A DNA stretch of 20,361 nt from a virus. Positions 3,647-13,938 of this stretch are shown here, piece by piece. The stretch is taken from the IMG/VR virus record IMGVR_UViG_3300033143_002834, positions 1 to 20,361 of that record; one strand, written 5' to 3'. How positions within the stretch are numbered: the first letter of the stretch is position 1; each line of letters opens with the position of its first letter. A model generated the notes under the pieces. The model was not told the origin of the DNA, did not search any database, and worked only from the letters and a program-made list of their open reading frames with translations. A program made the position numbers and the translations under genes.

Positions 3647-3676
3647 TTATAAATTAATTTGTTTTATTAAAATATC

Positions 3677-3697
3677 TTTTGTATATTACCATATAAG
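3677..3697 (+). promoter_or_regulatory. Promoter-like motif before the NAD operon
   Basis: TTTTGTATATTACCATATAA matches the left half of the recurring TTTTGTATATTTATATA motif. It lies about 10 bp before the first ATG of the operon, which has no Shine-Dalgarno sequence. Confidence 0.5.
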
Positions 3698-3705
3698 TTA
3701 TATAA

Positions 3706-4203
3706 ATGAAGAAAAAAGTATTACCAAAGATAAAAAATTACGAAACTTTTGATAAAGTTAATCCAACCGTAGATATAGCATGTTTTAATGTTAATCACAA
3801 CTATATGCTATTTGGTAAAAAAGCCACAGACGATAAACTTCGTTTGATTGGTGGTTTTGCGGATGTAACAGATAAAAGTTATGAGGATACAGCCCGTAGA
3901 GAATTTTTAGAAGAAACGGGAGGAACACTTGAAAATGTTGAATATATTGGAAGTCGACTTTCCAATGATTGGAGATTCCGCAAGTCAAATGACAAAGTTA
4001 TTACAGCATTGTTCTACGGACAAATATTAGATGATAGTAATTTGAAAGCTGCAGACGATATCGCTGAACTAAAATGGGTGGAATTTAACACTTTATGTGA
4101 AGTAAATTTATATGATATTATTATTGAAGGACATGTTTCTTTAGTAGAAAGAGCACTTGAACACATAACTAAACATGGAAATAAAAAATATAAAACTATA
4201 TGA
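3706..4203 (+). CDS. Nudix hydrolase, first gene of the NAD operon
   Basis: The 165-residue protein carries a Nudix box at about residues 49-73: GGFADVTDKSYEDTA then RREFLEETGG. The core REFLEETG, with the metal-binding glutamates (E66, E69, E70), is intact. The earlier conserved glutamate is replaced by lysine (K57), preceded by D56, and the loop is one residue longer than usual. Nudix enzymes split nucleoside diphosphates linked to another group; being first in an operon with NAD genes, ADP-ribose, NAD-related or nicotinic acid dinucleotides are reasonable substrates, but the sequence does not settle this. Its stop overlaps the nadE start as ATGA (4200-4203), so translation is coupled. It is not a nucleotidyltransferase and does not supply the missing NadD step. 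Confidence 0.88.
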   Translation: MKKKVLPKIKNYETFDKVNPTVDIACFNVNHNYMLFGKKATDDKLRLIGGFADVTDKSYEDTARREFLEETGGTLENVEYIGSRLSNDWRFRKSNDKVITALFYGQILDDSNLKAADDIAELKWVEFNTLCEVNLYDIIIEGHVSLVERALEHITKHGNKKYKTI

Positions 4204-5075
4204 AATACGAAGAAGCAGTAAAAAACATACGTAAAGAATTAAAAGACTACTTACAAAAAAGTGGTCTAAAATCACTTATTATTGGGGTATCTGGTGGACT
4301 AGATTCTACAGCAACCATATTATTAGCAACTCCGGTTTGTAAAGAACTAGGAGTTAATTTAATTGGTAGGTCGATATCCATAGAATCCAACAAACCAGAT
4401 GAAGTTGAAAGAGCTCATGAAATTGGACAGTTATGTGATAGTTTTTTACATTTGGATATTACAAACACATACAACGGAATGAAGTTTGTAAGTGATCTTG
4501 AAAAAACAACAAAGGACGCAAATAAAGATTCCGTACATACTAAAATTAGACATGGAAATGTTAAAGCAAGAATGAGAATGATTGTACTGTATAATTTAGC
4601 TTCTTTGTATGAAGGTATGGTACTTTCCACGGATAACTATACAGAATACCTACTTGGGTTCTGGACTTTACATGGTGATGTGGGTGATTACGGAATGATA
4701 CAAGAACTTTGGAAATCCGAAGTGTATGATATGGTAGAATGGATTCGTGATAATGAAATTGATAATACAATTACTAAACAACACATTACAAAAGTACTTG
4801 AGGCAAAAGCCACAGATGGATTGGGAATCACTAATTCAGATTTGGATCAAATCCTTCCCGAATGGAAAGGTGATTCACGAAGTGGTTATGAAGTAGTCGA
4901 TATAAAATTATCAATACATACAAAAATTCTTACTGATGGTAACAGCACACCAAGAGGACGAGCTGTTAATGAATATTTAGAACAAAATAAAGATTGTCCT
5001 GTTCTACAGAGACATTTAGCATCGAATTTCAAACGAAATAATCCGTATAATATTCCACGAAATAAAATTACATAA
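4200..5075 (+). CDS. nadE: NAD synthase, ammonia-dependent
   Basis: NadE makes NAD+ from nicotinic acid adenine dinucleotide, ATP and ammonia: the last step of NAD synthesis, in the cytoplasm. The 291-residue protein has the PP-loop ATP-pyrophosphatase motif SGGLDST (31-37), the helix GNVKARMRM (119-127), the STDNYTEYLLGFWTLHGDVGDY segment (about 143-164) that binds the substrate, and KATDGLG near residue 203, equivalent to the 'PSAGL' region of bacterial enzymes. It is about the length of single-domain NadE, so there is no glutaminase domain and it must use free ammonia. It overlaps the Nudix gene by four bases and is followed after 2 bp by the next gene. Motifs needed for activity appear intact. 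Confidence 0.93.
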   Translation: MKYEEAVKNIRKELKDYLQKSGLKSLIIGVSGGLDSTATILLATPVCKELGVNLIGRSISIESNKPDEVERAHEIGQLCDSFLHLDITNTYNGMKFVSDLEKTTKDANKDSVHTKIRHGNVKARMRMIVLYNLASLYEGMVLSTDNYTEYLLGFWTLHGDVGDYGMIQELWKSEVYDMVEWIRDNEIDNTITKQHITKVLEAKATDGLGITNSDLDQILPEWKGDSRSGYEVVDIKLSIHTKILTDGNSTPRGRAVNEYLEQNKDCPVLQRHLASNFKRNNPYNIPRNKIT

Positions 5076-5077
5076 AA

Positions 5078-5425
5078 ATGAAAAAGTATTATCGGTTATG
5101 TGAACGAAAAAATGGAAAATTATATACTTTGTTCCATCGTATAACTAAAAACAGGCATATGCCACTAAATACGTGGTTAAACGCTGAAATTAAAGAAGTT
5201 TGGGATGGTAGTCGTAAAACATCAAAAAAATATACTTCAGGATTTCATGTTTTTGAATATCCAGATGAATGTGCCGGTTTTATTAGTAAGTTTAGAAAAC
5301 CTCGTGATATGGTTATGGTAGAATGTGAGATAGGTAAAACTTGGCCAAAAACTCATAGTAAATCAAATGTTTTACTTACAGATAAAATAAAAGTATTGCG
5401 TGTAATAAAGGAATTGGAGATATGA
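5078..5425 (+). CDS. Unknown protein inside the NAD operon, 115 aa
   Basis: A basic soluble protein that begins KKYYRLCERKNGKLYTLFHRI and contains TSGFHVFEYPDECAGFISKFRKPRDMVMVECEIG (about residues 53-86). From memory similar proteins (YYRLCxxxxGxxxTLFHG ... GFHVF ... RDLVVVxCEV) occur in phages and bacteria with no known role. It lies 2 bp after nadE and overlaps the start of pncA by ATGA (5422-5425), so it is tightly linked to NAD genes. It lacks the (H/T)xGH and ISSTxxR motifs of nucleotidyltransferases, so it is not a disguised NadD. Confidence 0.75.
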   Translation: MKKYYRLCERKNGKLYTLFHRITKNRHMPLNTWLNAEIKEVWDGSRKTSKKYTSGFHVFEYPDECAGFISKFRKPRDMVMVECEIGKTWPKTHSKSNVLLTDKIKVLRVIKELEI

Positions 5426-6048
5426 AAACAGCATTAATAATCGTAGACGTACAAAAGGATTTTATGCCAAGTGGTAAGTTACCAGTACCAAATGGTGACT
5501 TAGTTATCCCAGCAATAAATTGGATGATGGAAAATATGAGGTTTGATTACATTGTGGCTACACAAGATTATCATCCAAAACGTCATAAATCTTTTGCATC
5601 ATCACATCCAGGTAGAGACCTGTATGAAACTATAAGGATTCCAGAAACTGGTCTATCTCAAGTGTTATGGCCAGATCATTGTGTAAAAGGAACGGTTGGT
5701 GCAAACATCCATCCTGATTTAAAACTTCCAGATGATACACATATTTTTCCTAAAGGAACGAATAAACTATACGATAGTTATTCTGGGTTCAAAGATGACG
5801 GAGGTATTCCTACCGGATTAGGAAATTATCTAAAAGATGTTGGTGTGGAAGAAGTATATATCGTAGGATTAACTACTGATTATTGCGTACAATTCACAGC
5901 ATTAGATGCTAAGAAATTAGGATTTAATACTATTGTAGTGGATAAAGCCTGTAGAGCAGTAGACGAGAGTATTGTTAAAGATGTATACGAAATTTTGGAA
6001 GGAAGAGGAATTTGGATTTTAAAAGGTGGACAATTTAAAAACAACTAA
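5422..6048 (+). CDS. pncA: Nicotinamidase
   Basis: PncA hydrolyses nicotinamide to nicotinate and ammonia, the entry to the Preiss-Handler salvage route. The 208-residue product is a full isochorismatase-fold enzyme. The catalytic triad is visible as D9 (IIVDVQKDF), K111 (FPKGTN) and C155 (GLTTDYCV). The metal site is D49, H51 and H86 (TQDYHP and WPDHC). Length and motif spacing match bacterial PncA. A GGAG lies just before the ATG, which overlaps the upstream stop by four bases. The ammonia it releases could feed the ammonia-dependent NadE of the same operon. All key residues are present, so I expect activity. Confidence 0.95.
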   Translation: MKTALIIVDVQKDFMPSGKLPVPNGDLVIPAINWMMENMRFDYIVATQDYHPKRHKSFASSHPGRDLYETIRIPETGLSQVLWPDHCVKGTVGANIHPDLKLPDDTHIFPKGTNKLYDSYSGFKDDGGIPTGLGNYLKDVGVEEVYIVGLTTDYCVQFTALDAKKLGFNTIVVDKACRAVDESIVKDVYEILEGRGIWILKGGQFKNN

Positions 6049-6049
6049 A

Positions 6050-7243
6050 ATGAAGAAATTCACTTATCCATTAATTAAAAGTATATTGGACAATGATTTG
6101 TATAAATTCACAATGCAGATGGCAGTAGTGAAGAAATTCCCTTATGCCGAAGTTGGTTATGGATTTATAAATCGTGGTGGAACACAATTCCCACCAAACT
6201 TTGCTATAGAATTAAGGAAGCAAGTCAAAATGATGGAAGACTTGACGTTAACTAAAGACGAAAAGGAATGGTTAAGTGAAAAATGTTATTACCTGGATCC
6301 AACTTATTTAGATTTTTTAGATGGTTACAGATACGATTCTACTGAAGTTGGTATAATACAAACGGATGGCGAACTAAAAGTATCCATAAACGGTCCTTGG
6401 TATCGTACAATTCTCTGGGAAGTCCCTTTAATGGCACTTATTTCTGAGTTGTATTTTAAAATGACAGACTGTTCGAATACAAGAAATGATTCTGAGAGAT
6501 ATCTAAACAACATTAATAAAAGGAAAACATTCCTTGCTAATGGAATAAAATATGCAGACTTCGGAACTAGGAGAAGATACTCTTATGACATACAAAAGGA
6601 AGTCGTTGAATGTTTTGCAGATAAATTCAATAAAGACAATTTTGTTGGTACTTCTAATGTTCATTTAGCACATAAATACAATGTAACTCCTATTGGTACA
6701 CATGCACATGAATGGTTTATGTTTCATGCAACTAAATACGGTTATAAAATGGCTAATCATTTAGCTATGGAAAATTGGACAGATGTATTTCGTGGAGAAC
6801 TTGGAGTAGCATTATCAGATACATTTACAACAGATGTTTTCTTTAAATCATTTGATAAGAAGTTTGCTAAATTATACGATGGAGTTCGTCAAGATAGTGG
6901 AGACCCATTTGTATTTACTGATAAAATAATAGAACATTACAAATCTCTCGGTATCGATCCAAAATCAAAAGTCATTATATTTTCTGACAGTTTGGATCCT
7001 GAAAAAGCCGTTGAACTTAAAGATTATTGTAGAGGAAAAATAATGTGTTCATTTGGTATAGGAACTAACTTTTCAAATGATGTTGGTGTAACTCCATTAA
7101 ATATGGTAATTAAAATCCTTAATGCTAAACCAGAAGGTGAAGATTGGCATCCATGTATTAAACTTTCAGATTCAGAAGGCAAACATACAGGAAATCTAAC
7201 AGAAATAGATATAGCAAAACAAGTATTAAATATAAAAAAATGA
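6050..7243 (+). CDS. pncB: Nicotinate phosphoribosyltransferase
   Basis: PncB joins nicotinate to PRPP, with ATP, to give nicotinate mononucleotide. The product of 397 residues aligns throughout with bacterial PncB (about 400 residues in E. coli). Landmarks are SILDNDLYKFTMQMAV near the N-terminus, INGPWYRTILWEVPLMALISE (about 113-133), FGTRRRYS (161-168), GTSN (190-193), the GTHAHEWF segment with the phosphorylated histidine (H210), RQDSGDP (270-276) and SFGIGT. I chose the ATG at 6050, one base after the pncA stop; an upstream ATG at 6026 lies inside pncA and would add eight unrelated residues. It is nicotinate- rather than nicotinamide-specific by overall similarity, which fits the nicotinamidase before it. 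It overlaps the lipoprotein gene by four bases. Confidence 0.95.
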   Translation: MKKFTYPLIKSILDNDLYKFTMQMAVVKKFPYAEVGYGFINRGGTQFPPNFAIELRKQVKMMEDLTLTKDEKEWLSEKCYYLDPTYLDFLDGYRYDSTEVGIIQTDGELKVSINGPWYRTILWEVPLMALISELYFKMTDCSNTRNDSERYLNNINKRKTFLANGIKYADFGTRRRYSYDIQKEVVECFADKFNKDNFVGTSNVHLAHKYNVTPIGTHAHEWFMFHATKYGYKMANHLAMENWTDVFRGELGVALSDTFTTDVFFKSFDKKFAKLYDGVRQDSGDPFVFTDKIIEHYKSLGIDPKSKVIIFSDSLDPEKAVELKDYCRGKIMCSFGIGTNFSNDVGVTPLNMVIKILNAKPEGEDWHPCIKLSDSEGKHTGNLTEIDIAKQVLNIKK

Positions 7244-7704
7244 AAAAATTATTATTAGTTTTAATAACAGCAATTTTACTCACTGGTTGTGAATGTGGGT
7301 GTAGTATAGAAGATTCAACAAAACCATTATCTGAATTGTCGGAGGCTGGTAAAGTATTAGTTGGTAAACATTATTTAGGAATAATTCCGGGTACAGATAA
7401 AATTGTGGAATTGGATGAGAATGGTCAATTAAGAATGTTTCCGGAGTTTAATGAAAGATATCTTATTCATTCTTTTAGTACACATAAAACTATCTTTGAA
7501 AAAACAACAGATAAACCACATGTGAAATTTGAATGGGAATCCAACAATTCAGGACATACAATTTATGAGATGTTAATTTGGGATGTACAAAAAGTAATAT
7601 TATGTACTCCTTCTAATTTTTTAAACCCAACAAATAAAGAACAAGAAGTAATAGAAGTAATAGAAGATGATTATGTGAGATCATTAATTGAAGGTACAAA
7701 TTAA
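7240..7704 (+). CDS. Phage-encoded lipoprotein of unknown function
   Basis: The N-terminus, KKLLLVLITAILLTGC, is a lipoprotein signal with lipobox LTGC and cleavage before C17; two more cysteines follow at once (C19, C21). The mature part of about 138 residues is soluble and acidic near the end (EVIEVIEDDYVRSLIEGTN), with no family that I recognise. It would be anchored in the cell envelope, with E18 after the lipidated cysteine. Phage lipoproteins often block a second phage from entering, but here this is only a possibility. Its start overlaps the end of pncB as ATGA, so it is made together with the NAD enzymes. Confidence 0.8.
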   Translation: MKKLLLVLITAILLTGCECGCSIEDSTKPLSELSEAGKVLVGKHYLGIIPGTDKIVELDENGQLRMFPEFNERYLIHSFSTHKTIFEKTTDKPHVKFEWESNNSGHTIYEMLIWDVQKVILCTPSNFLNPTNKEQEVIEVIEDDYVRSLIEGTN

Positions 7705-8743: not shown

Positions 8744-8760
8744 TTTTTGTATTTATATAA
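8744..8760 (+). promoter_or_regulatory. Promoter-like motif before the response regulator gene
   Basis: TTTTTGTATTTATATAA, a variant of the recurring TTTTGTATATTTATATA motif, lies 16 bp before the ATG at 8777. Its complement contains TATAAATA, the T4 late promoter core, but in the direction away from the gene. Confidence 0.5.
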
Positions 8761-8776
8761 AGTAAAAAGGATATAT

Positions 8777-9139
8777 ATGAGCAACCCAATCAGAATATTA
8801 CATGTTGAAGATGATGAAACTTTCATTGAATTAGTTGGTATAATGTTAAGTGATAAAATTTTTAAAGTGGATACTGCAAAAACAGGAGTTGAAGCAGTAG
8901 ACCTCGCTCTTAAAGGTACACACGACATCATATTAATGGATATACAAATGCCAATAATGGATGGTAGAGAAGCTACTAAGATTATTAAAAAAACTTTAGA
9001 AGATATCCCAATCATAGCGGTTACAGCATATGATGTAGATATAAAAGGTAAAGATTCTTTTTTTAATGATTTATTAAGGAAACCTTTTACTAAAAAGAAG
9101 TTACATGAAAAGATAATGGAACACTATTTAAAATCTTAA
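8777..9139 (+). CDS. Single-domain response regulator (receiver)
   Basis: A 120-residue CheY-like receiver domain with no output domain. The acidic pocket (E11, D12, D13), the phosphate-accepting D55 in ILMDIQMPIMDG, T83 (AVTAY) and K102 (RKPF) are all present, so phosphorylation is plausible. I chose the ATG at 8777 (MSNPIRILHVEDDE) with AAGG upstream; the upstream ATG at 8747 lies in the promoter-like motif. In the cell it would accept phosphate from a histidine kinase or phosphotransfer protein, presumably of the host, and could divert or mimic host signalling. No kinase is in the window. Sequences of the form ILHVEDDE and PIIAVTAY are typical of Bacteroidota hybrid systems, which suggests capture from a host. 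It is followed by the tmRNA promoter-like site. Confidence 0.93.
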   Translation: MSNPIRILHVEDDETFIELVGIMLSDKIFKVDTAKTGVEAVDLALKGTHDIILMDIQMPIMDGREATKIIKKTLEDIPIIAVTAYDVDIKGKDSFFNDLLRKPFTKKKLHEKIMEHYLKS

Positions 9140-9180: not shown

Positions 9181-9205
9181 TAGAGTTATTAGTTCATTGA
9201 TAAAT

Positions 9206-9563
9206 GGGGCTGTTTTTGGATTTGACAGCAGATCTGGATTACTTAGTAAGCAAGTAGTAGTTGAATCAGACTACTTTAAAAAGGTTCAAAACAATAATCG
9301 CAGAAGACATCATGTCTATTCCAACGTCTCTTACGAGAGGTGAGAGTGTGTTTGCAAGCACTGAACTTGCATTTGCATAAGGAACCGCAAAATCAGTAAA
9401 AACTTCTAGGATGATACGTTTTGTATGATTGGAGATTGTACTAGAAGTAAAGAAAATGACAATCATAATATTTTTGGAAAGTTAGAAAACTTTATACTGA
9501 AACTTGAAGAAAACTATTTAGTCGTCTGTTTGGACCGGGGTTCGACTCCCCGCAGTTCCACCA
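9206..9563 (+). ncRNA. ssrA: tmRNA (transfer-messenger RNA)
   Basis: tmRNA frees ribosomes stalled on broken mRNA and adds a degradation tag. The 5' end GGGGCTG (9206-9212) pairs with CAGTTCC (9553-9559), followed by A and an encoded CCA (9561-9563). TTTTTGGATTTGACAGC is the typical tmRNA 5' sequence. The T-arm is CGGGG-TTCGACT-CCCCG (9536-9552). Stems after the tag reading frame, such as ACTTCTAG (9402-9409) with CTAGAAGT (9441-9448) and a hairpin near 9477-9492, fit the pseudoknot region. A tag reading frame from GCA at 9300 to TAA at 9378-9380 gives 26 residues, starting AEDIMSIPTS and ending STELAFA. This is much longer than the usual 8-15 and does not end in LAA. There is no terminator after the CCA; the next gene begins 19 bp later, so processing from a longer transcript is likely. 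Confidence 0.93.
9300..9380 (+). other. Predicted tmRNA tag reading frame
   Basis: GCA (9300-9302) is the likely resume codon and TAA (9378-9380) the stop. The peptide begins with alanine and an acidic pair (AED), as in many tags, and ends ELAFA, a hydrophobic end comparable to ALAA. The exact resume codon is inferred from position and codon identity; an overlapping frame is also open in this stretch, so it needs to be tested. Confidence 0.65.
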
Positions 9564-9582
9564 TTTTAAAAGTTATAAGATT

Positions 9583-10173
9583 ATGGAAGAAGTTGTAGAT
9601 AAAGTAAAAGAAATCATAGGACCTCTACTATACGCTATTAATCGACACGATAAATTAAATAAATTAAATTTTGCTGTTGGTGGTGGTGCTATTGTAGATT
9701 CTATTTTGTTCGGAAAAATACAAAAAGATTTTGATATTTTTTTAATGGATCTAGAAGTAGGAGATTATTTCTATCAAATACTTAGGGATATTGGTTATAG
9801 ACAATACGATCAGAATACCTGGGCTAGAAAATTTAGAAGTTTTAATAATGAAATAGATGTATGTCATCTGAGAACTTTTACTCAAGAAGAATATATTAAT
9901 AATGTTGATATGACTGTTGCTAGTGGGTTATTAGATAATAATCTTATTTTTCATTGTAGACCTGAATTTTTTGATGACGTAGAAAATAAGGTTATTAATA
10001 TTGTTAATATCAACGAACCAGATCCTAGATTAGAATACAGAGTCAATAAAATGAAAGAAAAAGGTTTTAAATTAAACAAAGAATCTGAAAAGTTATATAA
10101 TATTTATTATAGAGGTGGAGATTATAAAAAATTATTAAAACCGATATCTAAAAACGATATCCTAATGTTTTAA
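9583..10173 (+). CDS. Nucleotidyltransferase-fold protein
   Basis: The 196-residue product has the pattern of the DNA polymerase beta/nucleotidyltransferase superfamily: GGG (33-35) in FAVGGGAIVDSILFGK, then the acid pair D49 and D51 in KDFDIFL, and a third carboxylate D92 in NNEIDVCH. This resembles the head of CCA-adding enzymes and poly(A) polymerases but lacks their C-terminal RNA-binding parts. Similar phage proteins end in a segment like PRLEYRVNKMKEKGFKL, seen here at about residues 147-163. Substrate unknown. It starts 19 bp after the tmRNA CCA with no terminator between, so the two are probably on one transcript. A role in RNA end processing or modification is possible; the tmRNA already encodes its CCA, so CCA addition is not needed to make it, only perhaps to repair it. 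Confidence 0.8.
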   Translation: MEEVVDKVKEIIGPLLYAINRHDKLNKLNFAVGGGAIVDSILFGKIQKDFDIFLMDLEVGDYFYQILRDIGYRQYDQNTWARKFRSFNNEIDVCHLRTFTQEEYINNVDMTVASGLLDNNLIFHCRPEFFDDVENKVINIVNINEPDPRLEYRVNKMKEKGFKLNKESEKLYNIYYRGGDYKKLLKPISKNDILMF

Positions 10174-10175
10174 TT

Positions 10176-10520
10176 ATGGATACTAAACAAATATTAGAAC
10201 AAGTAAAAAAGCAACAACGCAAAAAGAAGATTTTATCAGAGGTAAAGCGTTATAAAAAATATATCCTTAAAAAGTACCCAAATTCCATTTTAAAGATAAC
10301 AGGCAATAAAAAATTTTATATAGTAGATAGTAAAGGTTATAGAATATTAAAAGAAGAATACAAAATTCCGGATGGAGATAATCCATATAAAACCTGGAAA
10401 CAGACGTATATGATGTTATGGTCCAAACATATTGTAGATAGAAACAATAGAAAATTTAGTGACGAAAGAATAATAAAATATAAGAATAAGAGTAATAGAA
10501 AGAATCTAAAGGAAAAATAA
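10176..10520 (+). CDS. Lysine-rich small protein of unknown function
   Basis: A strongly basic 114-residue protein. The first 35 residues form a charged helix (KQILEQVKKQQRKKKILSEVKRYKKYILKK), and the end is also basic (KYKNKSNRKNLKEK). Between them lies KFYIVDSKGYRILKEEYKIPDGDNPYKTWKQTYMMLW. Nucleic-acid binding is suggested by charge only. It begins 2 bp after the nucleotidyltransferase gene, so the two are in one unit; no motif is recognised. Confidence 0.7.
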   Translation: MDTKQILEQVKKQQRKKKILSEVKRYKKYILKKYPNSILKITGNKKFYIVDSKGYRILKEEYKIPDGDNPYKTWKQTYMMLWSKHIVDRNNRKFSDERIIKYKNKSNRKNLKEK

Positions 10521-10750
10521 TTAACAATTAACAATTAAATTCATTTATCTGATATCAGTGTATGTACCTATTAAGCAGTTTCTGAAATAAATACTGAATA
10601 AGATTGTATTGACTTTTTTTAAATTTTTATCTATTTTCAATCTAAAGATTGAAAAATTTAAATTTAAACCTATTAATTTTTAAATATAAAATATTTATAT
10701 TTAAGTAATATATTTAAAATAATGTATTTAACTAATTTAATTGTATATTC
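10521..10750. other. AT-rich non-coding spacer with a hairpin
   Basis: The longest protein- and RNA-free stretch of the window. It contains a short AACAATT repeat at its start, long A/T runs, a perfect 9-bp stem TTTTCAATC/GATTGAAAA with loop TAAA (10634-10655), and a TATATTTAA-like sequence near 10710. I see no gene or tRNA in it. The hairpin may be a terminator working in either direction, since T-runs precede it and A-runs follow. Confidence 0.5.
10634..10655. terminator. Possible terminator hairpin
   Basis: TTTTCAATC (10634-10642) pairs perfectly with GATTGAAAA (10647-10655) around TAAA. On the minus strand it is followed by an A/T-rich tract; on the plus strand the downstream sequence is A-rich with T-triplets, so termination is plausible but not classical. 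Confidence 0.4.
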
Positions 10751-11407
10751 ATGATGCTTAATAATGAAAATATTATTTTAATTGATGATTGGACCCTAGA
10801 GGACCTATTTGAGGATGAATTTTGGGATAATAGTTTAAAAATTTTAAATTCCTATGTCCATAGTAATAGTTTCTCAGATGTTATGGATTTATTTAGTAAT
10901 GAATCACCTAATCCCTTAATTGAAGATAGAAAAAGAAAAGATTCATTGATTGAGTTTTTGTGGGAGTTACTACCTACAGAACATCAGTTGTCGTTCTTTG
11001 AAAATGATGTAACTGTATATTATATATGGGCAGACACGATAGGTTTAGAAAATTTAATTATATTACATGATTATTTGATAAATAATAATTTCAAAGATGT
11101 TCCTACTCTAATTACTTCTACTGGTGTGTATAAAAGAATGATGGAAGAAAAAAATAGAGCTTATAAGGACATGAATGAAATAACTAACAAAAATGATCCT
11201 AAGGAAAGAATTTTAATGAGATTTTATAATAAAATTCAAAATGAAGCTGTTATAACACTAAATACCCCTGAGTATGTTATGGTAAGTGGTCTTAATAATG
11301 ACAAAATAGACGCTGTTAAAGATAGATTACAGAACGAAAAATATAAATTATTCAATACTATTAATTATCAAAGTCATAAAATTTATGTTTTTCACCCTAT
11401 TAAATAA
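10751..11407 (+). CDS. Acidic phage protein of unknown function, 218 aa
   Basis: A soluble, acidic protein beginning MLNNENIILIDDWTLEDLFEDEFWDN. The N-terminal half is acidic and mostly helical; the C-terminal third (NTPEYVMVSGLNNDKIDAVKDRLQNEKYKLF) looks like an alpha/beta unit. No motif or family is recognised. Two ATGs in a row (10751 and 10754) leave the start uncertain by one residue. There is no Shine-Dalgarno sequence. It opens a new unit after the AT-rich spacer and is followed by a promoter-like AT-rich stretch (GAGTATATATATAAAC, 11417-11432). Confidence 0.75.
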   Translation: MMLNNENIILIDDWTLEDLFEDEFWDNSLKILNSYVHSNSFSDVMDLFSNESPNPLIEDRKRKDSLIEFLWELLPTEHQLSFFENDVTVYYIWADTIGLENLIILHDYLINNNFKDVPTLITSTGVYKRMMEEKNRAYKDMNEITNKNDPKERILMRFYNKIQNEAVITLNTPEYVMVSGLNNDKIDAVKDRLQNEKYKLFNTINYQSHKIYVFHPIK

Positions 11408-11845: not shown

Positions 11846-12858
11846 AAAATAAATTTTTCATAAATTTATTATTATTAACCGCTTTAGTGGTAGCAGGTGT
11901 TGCTGCCTATTTTTCAGTCTTCGGACTATCTAAATTATTTGCCGGAGCAATGTTAGCCGCAATTATTATGGCTTCATCTTTAGAATTAGGTAAATTAATA
12001 CTTTCTTCATATCTATATAGATTATGGGATAGTATATCCAAGTTTAGACGAGTTTATGGAGTTATAGCCGTTGGTGTATTGATGTTAATAACCAGTGTAG
12101 GTATATATGGATTTTTGAGTAATGCATTTGAAAGTACATCTATACAGGTAGAACAACTAGATTCAAAACTAGAAATTGTTGATACACGAATAGGTTCTAA
12201 GGAACAGGAAAAAGGTAGGTATGTACAATTAATTGTTGATAAACAAGATAGAATTAATACATTAACCAATTTACGTAAACAACAAGAAGTACGGTTAGAT
12301 TCGTTGTTAGCTAATGAACATTGGATTAACGCTAGTAGAACAACCACAAGTATACAGAATGCAGATAATGAAATAGGAAAGTTATATTCTGAAATAGATG
12401 GGTTAAATGTAAAATTAGATTCGACGAATTCAAATATTATTGGTTTAAAAACGGAGAGGTTAAATCATAATGTAACTAGTGATCTAACCGGGGAAGTAGG
12501 TCCATTGAGGTATATTTCTAGATTATTAAATACTAGTATGGATAGAGTTGTAAATTGGATTATTTTGTTATATCATTTAATAATTAAATATAAAAAAGAA
12601 GACGATGAAGAGGAATCTGTTTCTAATTCACCTTTACCTGTTCTTAATGAGACTCCAGTTAAATTAACAGAAGAAACAACTGATGAAGTTGAAGTTGAAG
12701 TTGAAACACCTGTACTAAAAGATACAGTAGAAAAGAAAAAATTATTTGATAAATACAAAGATTTTAAGAAAAAAATTGAAGTAAAAAAGAAAAAAAAGAA
12801 TAAAACAACAAGAATGTCTTCCTCTGGTGCTATAGAATATTATGACAAAAATGAGTAA
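11842..12858 (+). CDS. Membrane and coiled-coil phage protein
   Basis: The 338-residue product starts with three membrane helices (about residues 8-27, 31-55 and 70-92), one with FAGAMLAAIIMASSLELGKLILSSYLY. A long coiled coil (about 100-205, EQLDSKLEIVDTRIGSKEQEK...) follows. A further hydrophobic stretch (VVNWIILLYHLII) comes after GPLRYISRLL, then a highly charged tail with EVEVEVE and a KKKKK cluster. From memory this is a family common in marine T4-like phages, where the last hydrophobic segment normally continues as a full helix with FDPLA. Here that segment is only about 13 residues, perhaps from an in-frame deletion. It probably sits in the inner membrane with the coiled coil on one side. 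The function of the family is unknown. Confidence 0.8.
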   Translation: MKNKFFINLLLLTALVVAGVAAYFSVFGLSKLFAGAMLAAIIMASSLELGKLILSSYLYRLWDSISKFRRVYGVIAVGVLMLITSVGIYGFLSNAFESTSIQVEQLDSKLEIVDTRIGSKEQEKGRYVQLIVDKQDRINTLTNLRKQQEVRLDSLLANEHWINASRTTTSIQNADNEIGKLYSEIDGLNVKLDSTNSNIIGLKTERLNHNVTSDLTGEVGPLRYISRLLNTSMDRVVNWIILLYHLIIKYKKEDDEEESVSNSPLPVLNETPVKLTEETTDEVEVEVETPVLKDTVEKKKLFDKYKDFKKKIEVKKKKKNKTTRMSSSGAIEYYDKNE

Positions 12859-13339
12859 ATATAAATCTAAATCTAAAAAAATGGAAACTAAGGTTAAAAG
12901 ATTGAGTTCAGAAGACAGTTATAAAACTGTTATATGTTCAAAGTGTAATAGAATGCCAATGAAAATAGAAATAACTTCTAAGTCTGGAATTTGTTGGTTG
13001 TGTACTACTAGAATGGTTGAACCTCCTACATTAGCAAATAATAAACCAACAGGAAGACCTCGAGGATGGCAATTCAGACATGAATATGTTGATAAGGACG
13101 GTAACGTTTTTCATAAAGGAGAGGAACAAGCATCTTTAAAAGGTACTAAATCTCCTACCAAATTAGATAAGAAAATAACCGTTAAGAAGAAAATAGATAG
13201 AAAACAAAGAATAGATTCTAAAACTGAAATTGGAGCTGAAATTTATAAATTAAAAAATAAATTAAATAATGCTAAAACAAAAAAAGAAAAAATACTCATT
13301 GAAAGAAAAATTAAAAAATTACAAAAAACGATTAAATAA
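12851..13339 (+). CDS. Zinc-finger phage protein with basic tail
   Basis: Two CxxC pairs (CSKC near residue 29, CWLC near residue 48) in TVICSKCNRMPMKIEI then GICWLCTTRM form a likely zinc ribbon. It is followed by PTGRPRGWQFRHEYVDKDGNVFHKGEEQASLKGT, a block with an AT-hook-like GRPRGW that I recall from similar marine phage proteins, and a lysine-rich helical tail. DNA or RNA binding is a reasonable inference. I chose ATG 12851, which overlaps the upstream gene by 8 bp; the ATG at 12842 is an alternative. It ends with its stop overlapping the first base of the next gene. Confidence 0.75.
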   Translation: MSKYKSKSKKMETKVKRLSSEDSYKTVICSKCNRMPMKIEITSKSGICWLCTTRMVEPPTLANNKPTGRPRGWQFRHEYVDKDGNVFHKGEEQASLKGTKSPTKLDKKITVKKKIDRKQRIDSKTEIGAEIYKLKNKLNNAKTKKEKILIERKIKKLQKTIK

Positions 13340-13938
13340 TGGATATTATTTACGATATAAATAATTTAAAAAAATGTACATCTACTTTAGATTTAAAATC
13401 TAATCAAGATGTTGCATCAAAGCTTTTTAAAACTTTAGTAGATAATCCTACTGGAAATAAATTAGCTTGTAATCAGATCGGTATCCTTGATCATAGGGTA
13501 GCCGTAGTTAATATAAGAGAACCTCTGTACCTAGTAAACCCAGAAATAATCTCTCGAGAAATCCCTATCCCTTATATTTCTGATGATTTATCATTCCCTC
13601 AAAAGATACTAAATACTCAGAAACACGGAAGAATTGTAGTTAAGGCAGATAATTTTAAAACACCAATAACATTTGGAGTAAAAGATGACTCGGACGAAAC
13701 ACGTATTTCAGATCCAATTATCATGGAATCATGTGCAATACAACATGTAATTGATATGTTAAATGGAGTGACTATGTATGATAGAGTTATAAAAAAACAA
13801 ACACAAGTCGTAAGCAAAACAAAACATTATCGTAATGAAATTGTTACCCTAGTAAACGACAACGCCAAACCGATTAAAATTAAATTTAAATACGCCACAA
13901 GGTATTTAGATCAGGGATGGCAAATAAAAACCCCATAA
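13339..13938 (+). CDS. Degenerate peptide deformylase homologue
   Basis: Peptide deformylase removes the formyl group from new proteins using a metal held by one Cys and two His. The fold signatures can be seen: GNKLACNQIG (residues 39-48) for GxGLAAxQ, SDDLSFPQ (81-88) for EGCLSFP, and QHVIDMLNG (135-143) for QHEIDHLNG. The glutamine (Q46) and first histidine (H136) remain, but the metal cysteine is D83, the catalytic glutamate is V137 and the second metal histidine is M140. It should therefore not act as a classical deformylase. The reading frame is full length (199 residues) with no break, so this is a maintained protein and not a pseudogene; it may bind formyl-peptide, ribosome or host deformylase. 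It begins at the stop of the zinc-finger gene. The following spacer has a promoter-like site. Confidence 0.8.
   Translation: MDIIYDINNLKKCTSTLDLKSNQDVASKLFKTLVDNPTGNKLACNQIGILDHRVAVVNIREPLYLVNPEIISREIPIPYISDDLSFPQKILNTQKHGRIVVKADNFKTPITFGVKDDSDETRISDPIIMESCAIQHVIDMLNGVTMYDRVIKKQTQVVSKTKHYRNEIVTLVNDNAKPIKIKFKYATRYLDQGWQIKTP

Follow-up and report, generated by a model that had tools for sequence, protein, structure and literature searches.

The 20,361-base viral fragment held as IMG/VR record IMGVR_UViG_3300033143_002834, which was analysed over its full stretch and is called the window here, carries at positions 3706-7243 a block of genes that is probably a phage salvage operon for nicotinamide adenine dinucleotide (NAD+), of the deamidating or Preiss-Handler type. 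Three of the four steps that lead from nicotinamide to NAD+ are encoded in the window, by genes for a nicotinamidase (PncA), a nicotinate phosphoribosyltransferase (PncB) and an NAD synthetase (NadE), and the block has the following order:

3706-4203, + strand: Nudix hydrolase, 165 amino acids (PF00293, 46.1 bits)
4200-5075, + strand: NadE, NAD synthetase without a fused glutaminase domain, 291 amino acids (TIGR00552)
5078-5425, + strand: 115-amino-acid protein inside the block, function unknown (weak match to phrog_30118, itself of unknown function)
5422-6048, + strand: PncA, nicotinamidase, 208 amino acids (PF00857, PRK11609, 2WT9)
6050-7243, + strand: PncB, nicotinate phosphoribosyltransferase (TIGR01514, 2IM5), with a longer reading from a GTG at 6026

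Neighbouring genes of the block overlap by 4 nucleotides (nt) or are separated by gaps of 1-2 nt, as expected of one transcript. The original prediction, made from the letters of the window, had named the Nudix, NadE, PncA and PncB genes, and the open reading frame (ORF) list together with Pfam and NCBIfam searches places all four as listed. Its description of a coupled operon holds for the tight overlaps but needs amending in its extent, for the block also contains the 115-amino-acid gene, continues into a lipoprotein gene at 7240, and has a PncB whose start is more likely the ATG at 6050 than the GTG at 6026. The 115-amino-acid protein has no Pfam or NCBIfam match, and none of the first 19 related loci encodes a homologue.

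The enzyme families, the intact active sites, the gene order and its recurrence can be read directly from sequence. PncA scores 90 bits with the isochorismatase family PF00857 and 171.2 bits with the nicotinamidase model PRK11609, just below the cut-off of 174, and its closest solved structure is the nicotinamidase 2WT9 (E 9.5e-52). Its translation holds the D9, K111 and C155 triad and the metal-site residues D49, H51 and H86, all of which are invariant across seven phage homologues. PncB reaches 446.8 bits with the NAPRTase model TIGR01514 (cut-off 269.55), has intact GTHAHEWF and RQDSGDP motifs, and matches only NAPRTase structures, the closest being 2IM5 (E 8e-113), which we take to be the NAPRTase of Porphyromonas. 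A NadV/NAMPT identity for this protein was rejected, given that TIGR01514 is over its cut-off and the NAMPT family phrog_448 gives only 52 bits; in 30 related records the NadV family matched nowhere but at the pncB positions. In one relative (L007:7896-9200) a single in-frame TAA splits pncB, which is intact in relatives, and this is either a sequencing error or a broken gene. NadE scores 112 bits with NAD_synthase and 112.7 bits with TIGR00552 nadE (cut-off 63.65), and it keeps the P-loop SGGLDST as well as E149, D160 and K172; the closest solved structures are NH3-dependent NAD synthetases, and its AlphaFold2 model (mean predicted local distance difference test score, pLDDT, 79.8) is best matched by 1XNG, the H. 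pylori NadE (E 1e-11). Every residue that had been named earlier for the PncA, PncB and NadE motif sets is found in the translations.

From these features we infer the enzyme activities and a flux in which PncA would convert nicotinamide to nicotinate, PncB would join nicotinate and phosphoribosyl pyrophosphate (PRPP) to give nicotinate mononucleotide (NaMN), an adenylyltransferase of the NadD, NadM or NadR type, supplied by the host or by an unseen part of the phage genome, would turn NaMN into nicotinate adenine dinucleotide (NaAD), and NadE would amidate NaAD to NAD+. The Nudix enzyme would probably split ADP-ribose into AMP and ribose-5-phosphate, returning ATP and PRPP. The most likely use of such a route would be to refill NAD+ during infection, chiefly when host NAD+-cleaving enzymes (NADases) yield nicotinamide and ADP-ribose. 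The last two steps could also run in the order described for Francisella (PMC3376133), with NadE acting as a nicotinamide mononucleotide (NMN) synthetase on NaMN and an adenylyltransferase of the NadM or NadR type then forming NAD+ by way of NMN. By both fold and profile, the window NadE clade has the Francisella NMN synthetase structure 3FIU among its nearest matches, and in L018, L072, Phosso and LR756501 pncB is accompanied by a NadM-like or NadR-like protein, but ordinary NAD synthetases score equally well, the NadE of Phosso gives 381 bits with the ordinary NAD synthase model (cut-off 250), and in many relatives the adenylyltransferase is NadD and not NadM, so that we regard the Francisella order as unlikely.

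The Preiss-Handler genes recur together in many viruses. Viral loci were collected by IMG/VR scans with PncB and PncA alignments and then surveyed with hidden Markov models; low-scoring "pncA" matches of 250-300 amino acids (that of L068, the one checked, has no Pfam match) were excluded from the counts. Distances between pncA and pncB are biased because records were picked for co-occurrence, and the counts over 66, 51 and 80 loci are used instead. Among the 66 viral pncB clusters (90% identity), nadE lies within 10 kb in 41, pncA in 23 and nadD in 14, and the 51 viral pncA clusters have pncB in 31 cases and nadE in 29. With the same query, nadE was found within 8 kb at 0/80 bacterial pncB loci and pncA at 3/80, a contrast with the viruses that is strong and not exact, the control being mostly Bacteroidota, searched with phage-built profiles and an 8-kb flank. 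Single NadE or pncB matches occur in cyanophages and jumbo phages as well. In the 30 related records the tail sheath family PF04984 is matched in two and PF03237 in eight, so for the smaller records the assignment to viruses depends on how IMG/VR classed them and on gene context; only three of the 30 have a PRPP synthetase, and PRPP would therefore normally be host-supplied. The claim of a nicotinate-based phage route apart from the two NAD+ reconstitution pathways NARP1 and NARP2, of which NARP2 consists of NAMPT and an NMN adenylyltransferase, is thus strongly supported by homology, by intact active sites and by recurrence in many viruses.

It had been proposed that the phage route relies on host NadD, and as a general rule this fails, since relatives often encode the enzyme themselves: TIGR00482 NadD is found in many of the related viral records and is over its cut-off in 11/30. 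A PF01467 match in L024 was set aside as CoaD-like by sequence and not NadD. The 323-kb phage L033 (G022), which has a terminase (PF03237, 1.5e-20) and a T4-type portal (PF07230, 3.9e-49; 0/14 control genomes match), encodes a complete set: PncA, PncB, a NadD that is fused to MazG and exceeds the TIGR00482 cut-off, and a CN_hydrolase-NadE that depends on glutamine. The last of these also speaks against the suggestion that ammonia freed by PncA feeds NadE as a general feature. MazG-NadD fusions were seen in phages at L001:10426-11325 and L033:12792-13673. All four genes lie inside about 4 kb in L123 and L155, the viral status of both being taken from IMG/VR, and in the uncultured huge phage LR756501 (735 kb) pncA, a NadR-like gene, nadE and pncB all fall inside 8.5 kb. 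Cultured phages have such genes too. The circular 469-kb genome of Sinorhizobium phage Phosso groups within 5.6 kb an isochorismatase gene and those for NadE, NAPRT, Nudix and a NadM-like adenylyltransferase; the isochorismatase is annotated only as "hydrolase" and keeps the nicotinamidase D/K/C residues, and its PncA-like assignment is one of family membership and residues, the nicotinamidase score being weak (33.7 bits against a cut-off of 174). Agrobacterium phage Atu_ph07 has a homologue of this protein (51% identity) that neighbours a cytidyltransferase and a Nudix; its NAPRT is some 3-4 kb away, and NadE is elsewhere in the genome. In these two cultured jumbo phages the likely nicotinamidase genes stand under hypothetical or hydrolase labels, at NC_042013 gp236-gp238 and as the PV764938 "hydrolase" XYS97525.1. 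Since the set looks complete in two phages that are in culture, the route is open to testing today.

The window Nudix hydrolase scores 46.1 bits with PF00293 NUDIX against a cut-off of 21.1, has the motif REFLEETGG, and has the Nudix fold confirmed by its AlphaFold2 model and Foldseek. Weak matches link it to PRK05379 (NadM-Nudix) and to NAD(+) diphosphatase, and it is most like the Nudix half of the NadM-like proteins that adjoin pncB in L018 and L072 (36-41% identity), NadM being an NMN adenylyltransferase/ADP-ribose pyrophosphatase. A full NadM identity, with adenylyltransferase and Nudix parts, was rejected, the window protein of 165 amino acids holding the Nudix half only, as was an NrtR-type regulator, there being no winged helix and only about 35 residues, or one helix, after the Nudix domain. 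The Nudix protein that adjoins nadD and nadE in L009 is over the cut-off for the YffH/AdpP family (103.8 bits against 79.55), among whose members is ADP-ribose pyrophosphatase. Because of this AdpP-family protein and the kinship with NadM-like Nudix domains, ADP-ribose is a reasonable candidate for the substrate of the window enzyme. A viral scan with the window Nudix protein alone returned no matches. At L018:9863-10663, in a 429-kb phage, an ADP-ribosylglycohydrolase (PF03747, 121 bits) adjoins pncB, with the NadM-like gene upstream.

What the block is for is a more finely balanced matter. A counter-defence purpose is plausible, with the chances about even, and the wider proposal is held with equal reserve, namely that the Preiss-Handler set (PncA, PncB, one of NadD, NadM or NadR, NadE and often Nudix) may form a third, repeatedly assembled phage system of NAD+ reconstitution that turns what NADase defences release back into NAD+, is found whole in certain jumbo phages as well as in Phosso and Atu_ph07, and gives a nicotinamidase to hosts that have none. 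Among Bacteroidota genomes with pncB, a PRK11609-type PncA was found in only 15/28 in a search confined to that one family; about half of these genomes have no PncA match, and phage PncA could therefore supply a missing step in some hosts. Several observations weigh against the salvage and counter-defence readings. No PncA, NadE or NadD gene lies within 10 kb in 19 of the 66 viral pncB clusters, and a Nudix gene is found by a narrow profile in just 12 of the 66, a weaker link than those of NadE and PncA. Foldseek also returns NADH pyrophosphatases, NUDT15 and NrtR for the Nudix model, so that ADP-ribose is not favoured over NAD(H) or other substrates. A search of the 20-kb window for NadD gave no adenylyltransferase (PF01467) match, one 405-kb record that has both terminase and portal encodes PncA, PncB and NadE without NadD, and among the genes adjoining the module in the window none was recognised as a known defence or counter-defence gene.

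A competing explanation, to which we assign a substantial probability that falls somewhat short of even, is that the genes give general metabolic support and are not tied to defence in particular, raising NAD(H) for viral DNA synthesis in hosts that grow poorly, through NAD-dependent ligase, IMP dehydrogenase and ribonucleotides. Such a role would fit the NAD-dependent DNA ligase that adjoins pncB and nadE in L011, the IMP dehydrogenase that adjoins pncA in L014, and the fact that many carriers are large phages rich in metabolism of their own. PncA is hard to explain on these terms, however, since a route not fed by free nicotinamide, which arises when NAD+ is cleaved, has no need of it, and the Nudix partner is likewise hard to explain; neither point is decisive. 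It has also to be considered that PncA and Nudix serve to clear nicotinamide and ADP-ribose as inhibitory or signalling products, PncB and NadE being secondary. PncA and Nudix do share one block, and pncB is adjoined by the ADP-ribosylglycohydrolase in L018, yet clearance predicts the opposite of the commonest viral pair, which is PncB with NadE, often without PncA, and we consider it quite improbable.

Many phages can probably, to judge from their gene content, rebuild NAD+ by a route that is absent from the published phage NAD+ enzyme surveys examined. Those surveys deal with nicotinamide-using routes only (NadV, NadM, NadR and Adps/Namat); a systematic viral survey (PMC9503650) and a jumbo-phage survey (PMC7824862) describe NadV, NadM and NadR, and the words "nicotinamidase" and "NadE" occur in neither text. 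The NARP2-like salvage described there (NadV with NadM or NadR, as in Vibrio phage KVP40; PMC9503650, PMC7824862) resembles the window route in being a phage-encoded conversion of nicotinamide to NAD+, in often having a Nudix domain attached, in being common in large phages and in having been proposed to counter NAD+ depletion, but it uses a NadV-type nicotinamide phosphoribosyltransferase and an NMN adenylyltransferase in two steps, whereas the window route goes via nicotinate with PncA, PncB and NadE. NARP1 (Adps and Namat; PMC12774641, PMC13232231) likewise restores NAD+ from what NADase defence leaves behind but pyrophosphorylates ADP-ribose and attaches nicotinamide to it directly; a NARP1 identity for the block was rejected, as neither Adps (PRPP-synthetase-like) nor Namat families are among its proteins. 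Bacterial Preiss-Handler salvage by PncA, PncB, NadD and NadE has the same enzymes in the same reaction order, but its genes are scattered in the sampled bacterial loci, whereas the phage genes are clustered, sometimes with Nudix, and have a separate PncB branch.

Atu_ph07 and Phosso have NAPRT and NadE annotated, and the PncA-like protein, adenylyltransferase and Nudix nearby were recognised in this analysis; they differ from the window in their diverged sequences, a split NadM-like pair and alphaproteobacterial hosts. The passages searched in the 2018 Atu_ph07 paper mention NAPRT, NadR, PnuC and Nudix and not a PncA-PncB-NadE route. The Xanthomonas phage X1 paper (July 2026, PMC13384950) lists pncB, nadM, nadD and nadE as auxiliary metabolic genes and suggests counter-defence, but its list is without PncA and the paper has no comparative analysis; as it also lists NAMPT, the X1 pncB may be of the NadV type. 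In the literature searched, no paper was found that describes the PncA-PncB-NadE set in phages. A widespread deamidating route, if real, would be a further means by which phages hold NAD+ against depletion, and it would run on common metabolites, namely PRPP, ATP and ammonia or glutamine.

A maximum-likelihood tree built from 79 PncBs gathers 29 bacterial sequences into a single clade (100/99) and leaves the viral ones outside it, although these bacterial PncBs are the best-matching part only and more distant ones could fall among the viral sequences. The sole exception is L198, a 3.9-kb contig with pncB-Nudix-nadD binned as a Deltaproteobacteria metagenome-assembled genome; because both its arrangement and its PncB branch match viral loci, it is probably a misbinned viral contig. 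The relatives L014 and L016 have the phage backbone of the window, but their module sits between the peptide deformylase and HD genes in a different gene order, with NadE only 25-27% identical and a dissimilar Nudix (20-22%). These differences on one backbone suggest that the same pathway has been assembled repeatedly in phages, and such repeated assembly would be the strongest sign that the genes function jointly. Other backbone relatives have no NAD module within the stretches examined. The module of L014, an immuto-like relative, has a GroEL-type chaperonin gene (9198-10820) between pncB and nadE, and its pncA is followed by one for an IMP dehydrogenase (12833-13927).

Gene content identifies the window as 20 kb of a myovirus genome that is syntenic with the 160-kb Immutovirus vB_FspM_immuto, a phage of Flavobacterium. 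A run of HD phosphohydrolase, 233-, 132- and 378-amino-acid proteins and baseplate gp25 parallels that phage in order and gene sizes, and tblastn matches the HD and gp25 genes between the two; nothing in the immuto genome matched PncB, NadE or PncA of the window. Given gp25 and this synteny, the host is likely a Flavobacterium or another member of the Bacteroidota. The fragment is small, and viral contig collections may contain some contamination, which would make the window bacterial DNA misclassed as viral, but the gp25 gene and immuto synteny, the viral PncB branch separate from the sampled bacteria, and the occurrence of the same genes in terminase- and portal-bearing phages and in cultured phages effectively refute this, and we give it next to no weight.

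The block is flanked as follows:

3647-3705, + strand: upstream gap of 59 nt, A+T-rich and without a Shine-Dalgarno-like sequence, likely a leader or promoter region
7240-7704, + strand: predicted lipoprotein, 154 amino acids, from the ORF list, with N-terminus MKKLLLVLITAILLTGC and the lipobox read directly

A promoter scan of the region upstream of the block found sites no more numerous than in shuffles, and no promoter is claimed. The predicted lipoprotein has no family match; its gene overlaps the end of pncB by 4 nt, which extends the coupled run beyond the block, and it may be on the same transcript as pncB. Elsewhere on the + strand the window encodes a PspC-domain small membrane protein (1807-2052, PF04024), a stand-alone response-regulator receiver domain (8747-9139, PF00072, 71 bits) and a peptide deformylase (13339-13938, PF01327), the gene directly after which the NAD module lies in the L014 and L016 relatives. 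A transfer-messenger RNA gene is found at 9206-9563 (+ strand; Rfam RF00023, 109 bits) with a CCA end and the ARAGORN tag AEDIMSIPTSLTRGESVFASTELAFA.

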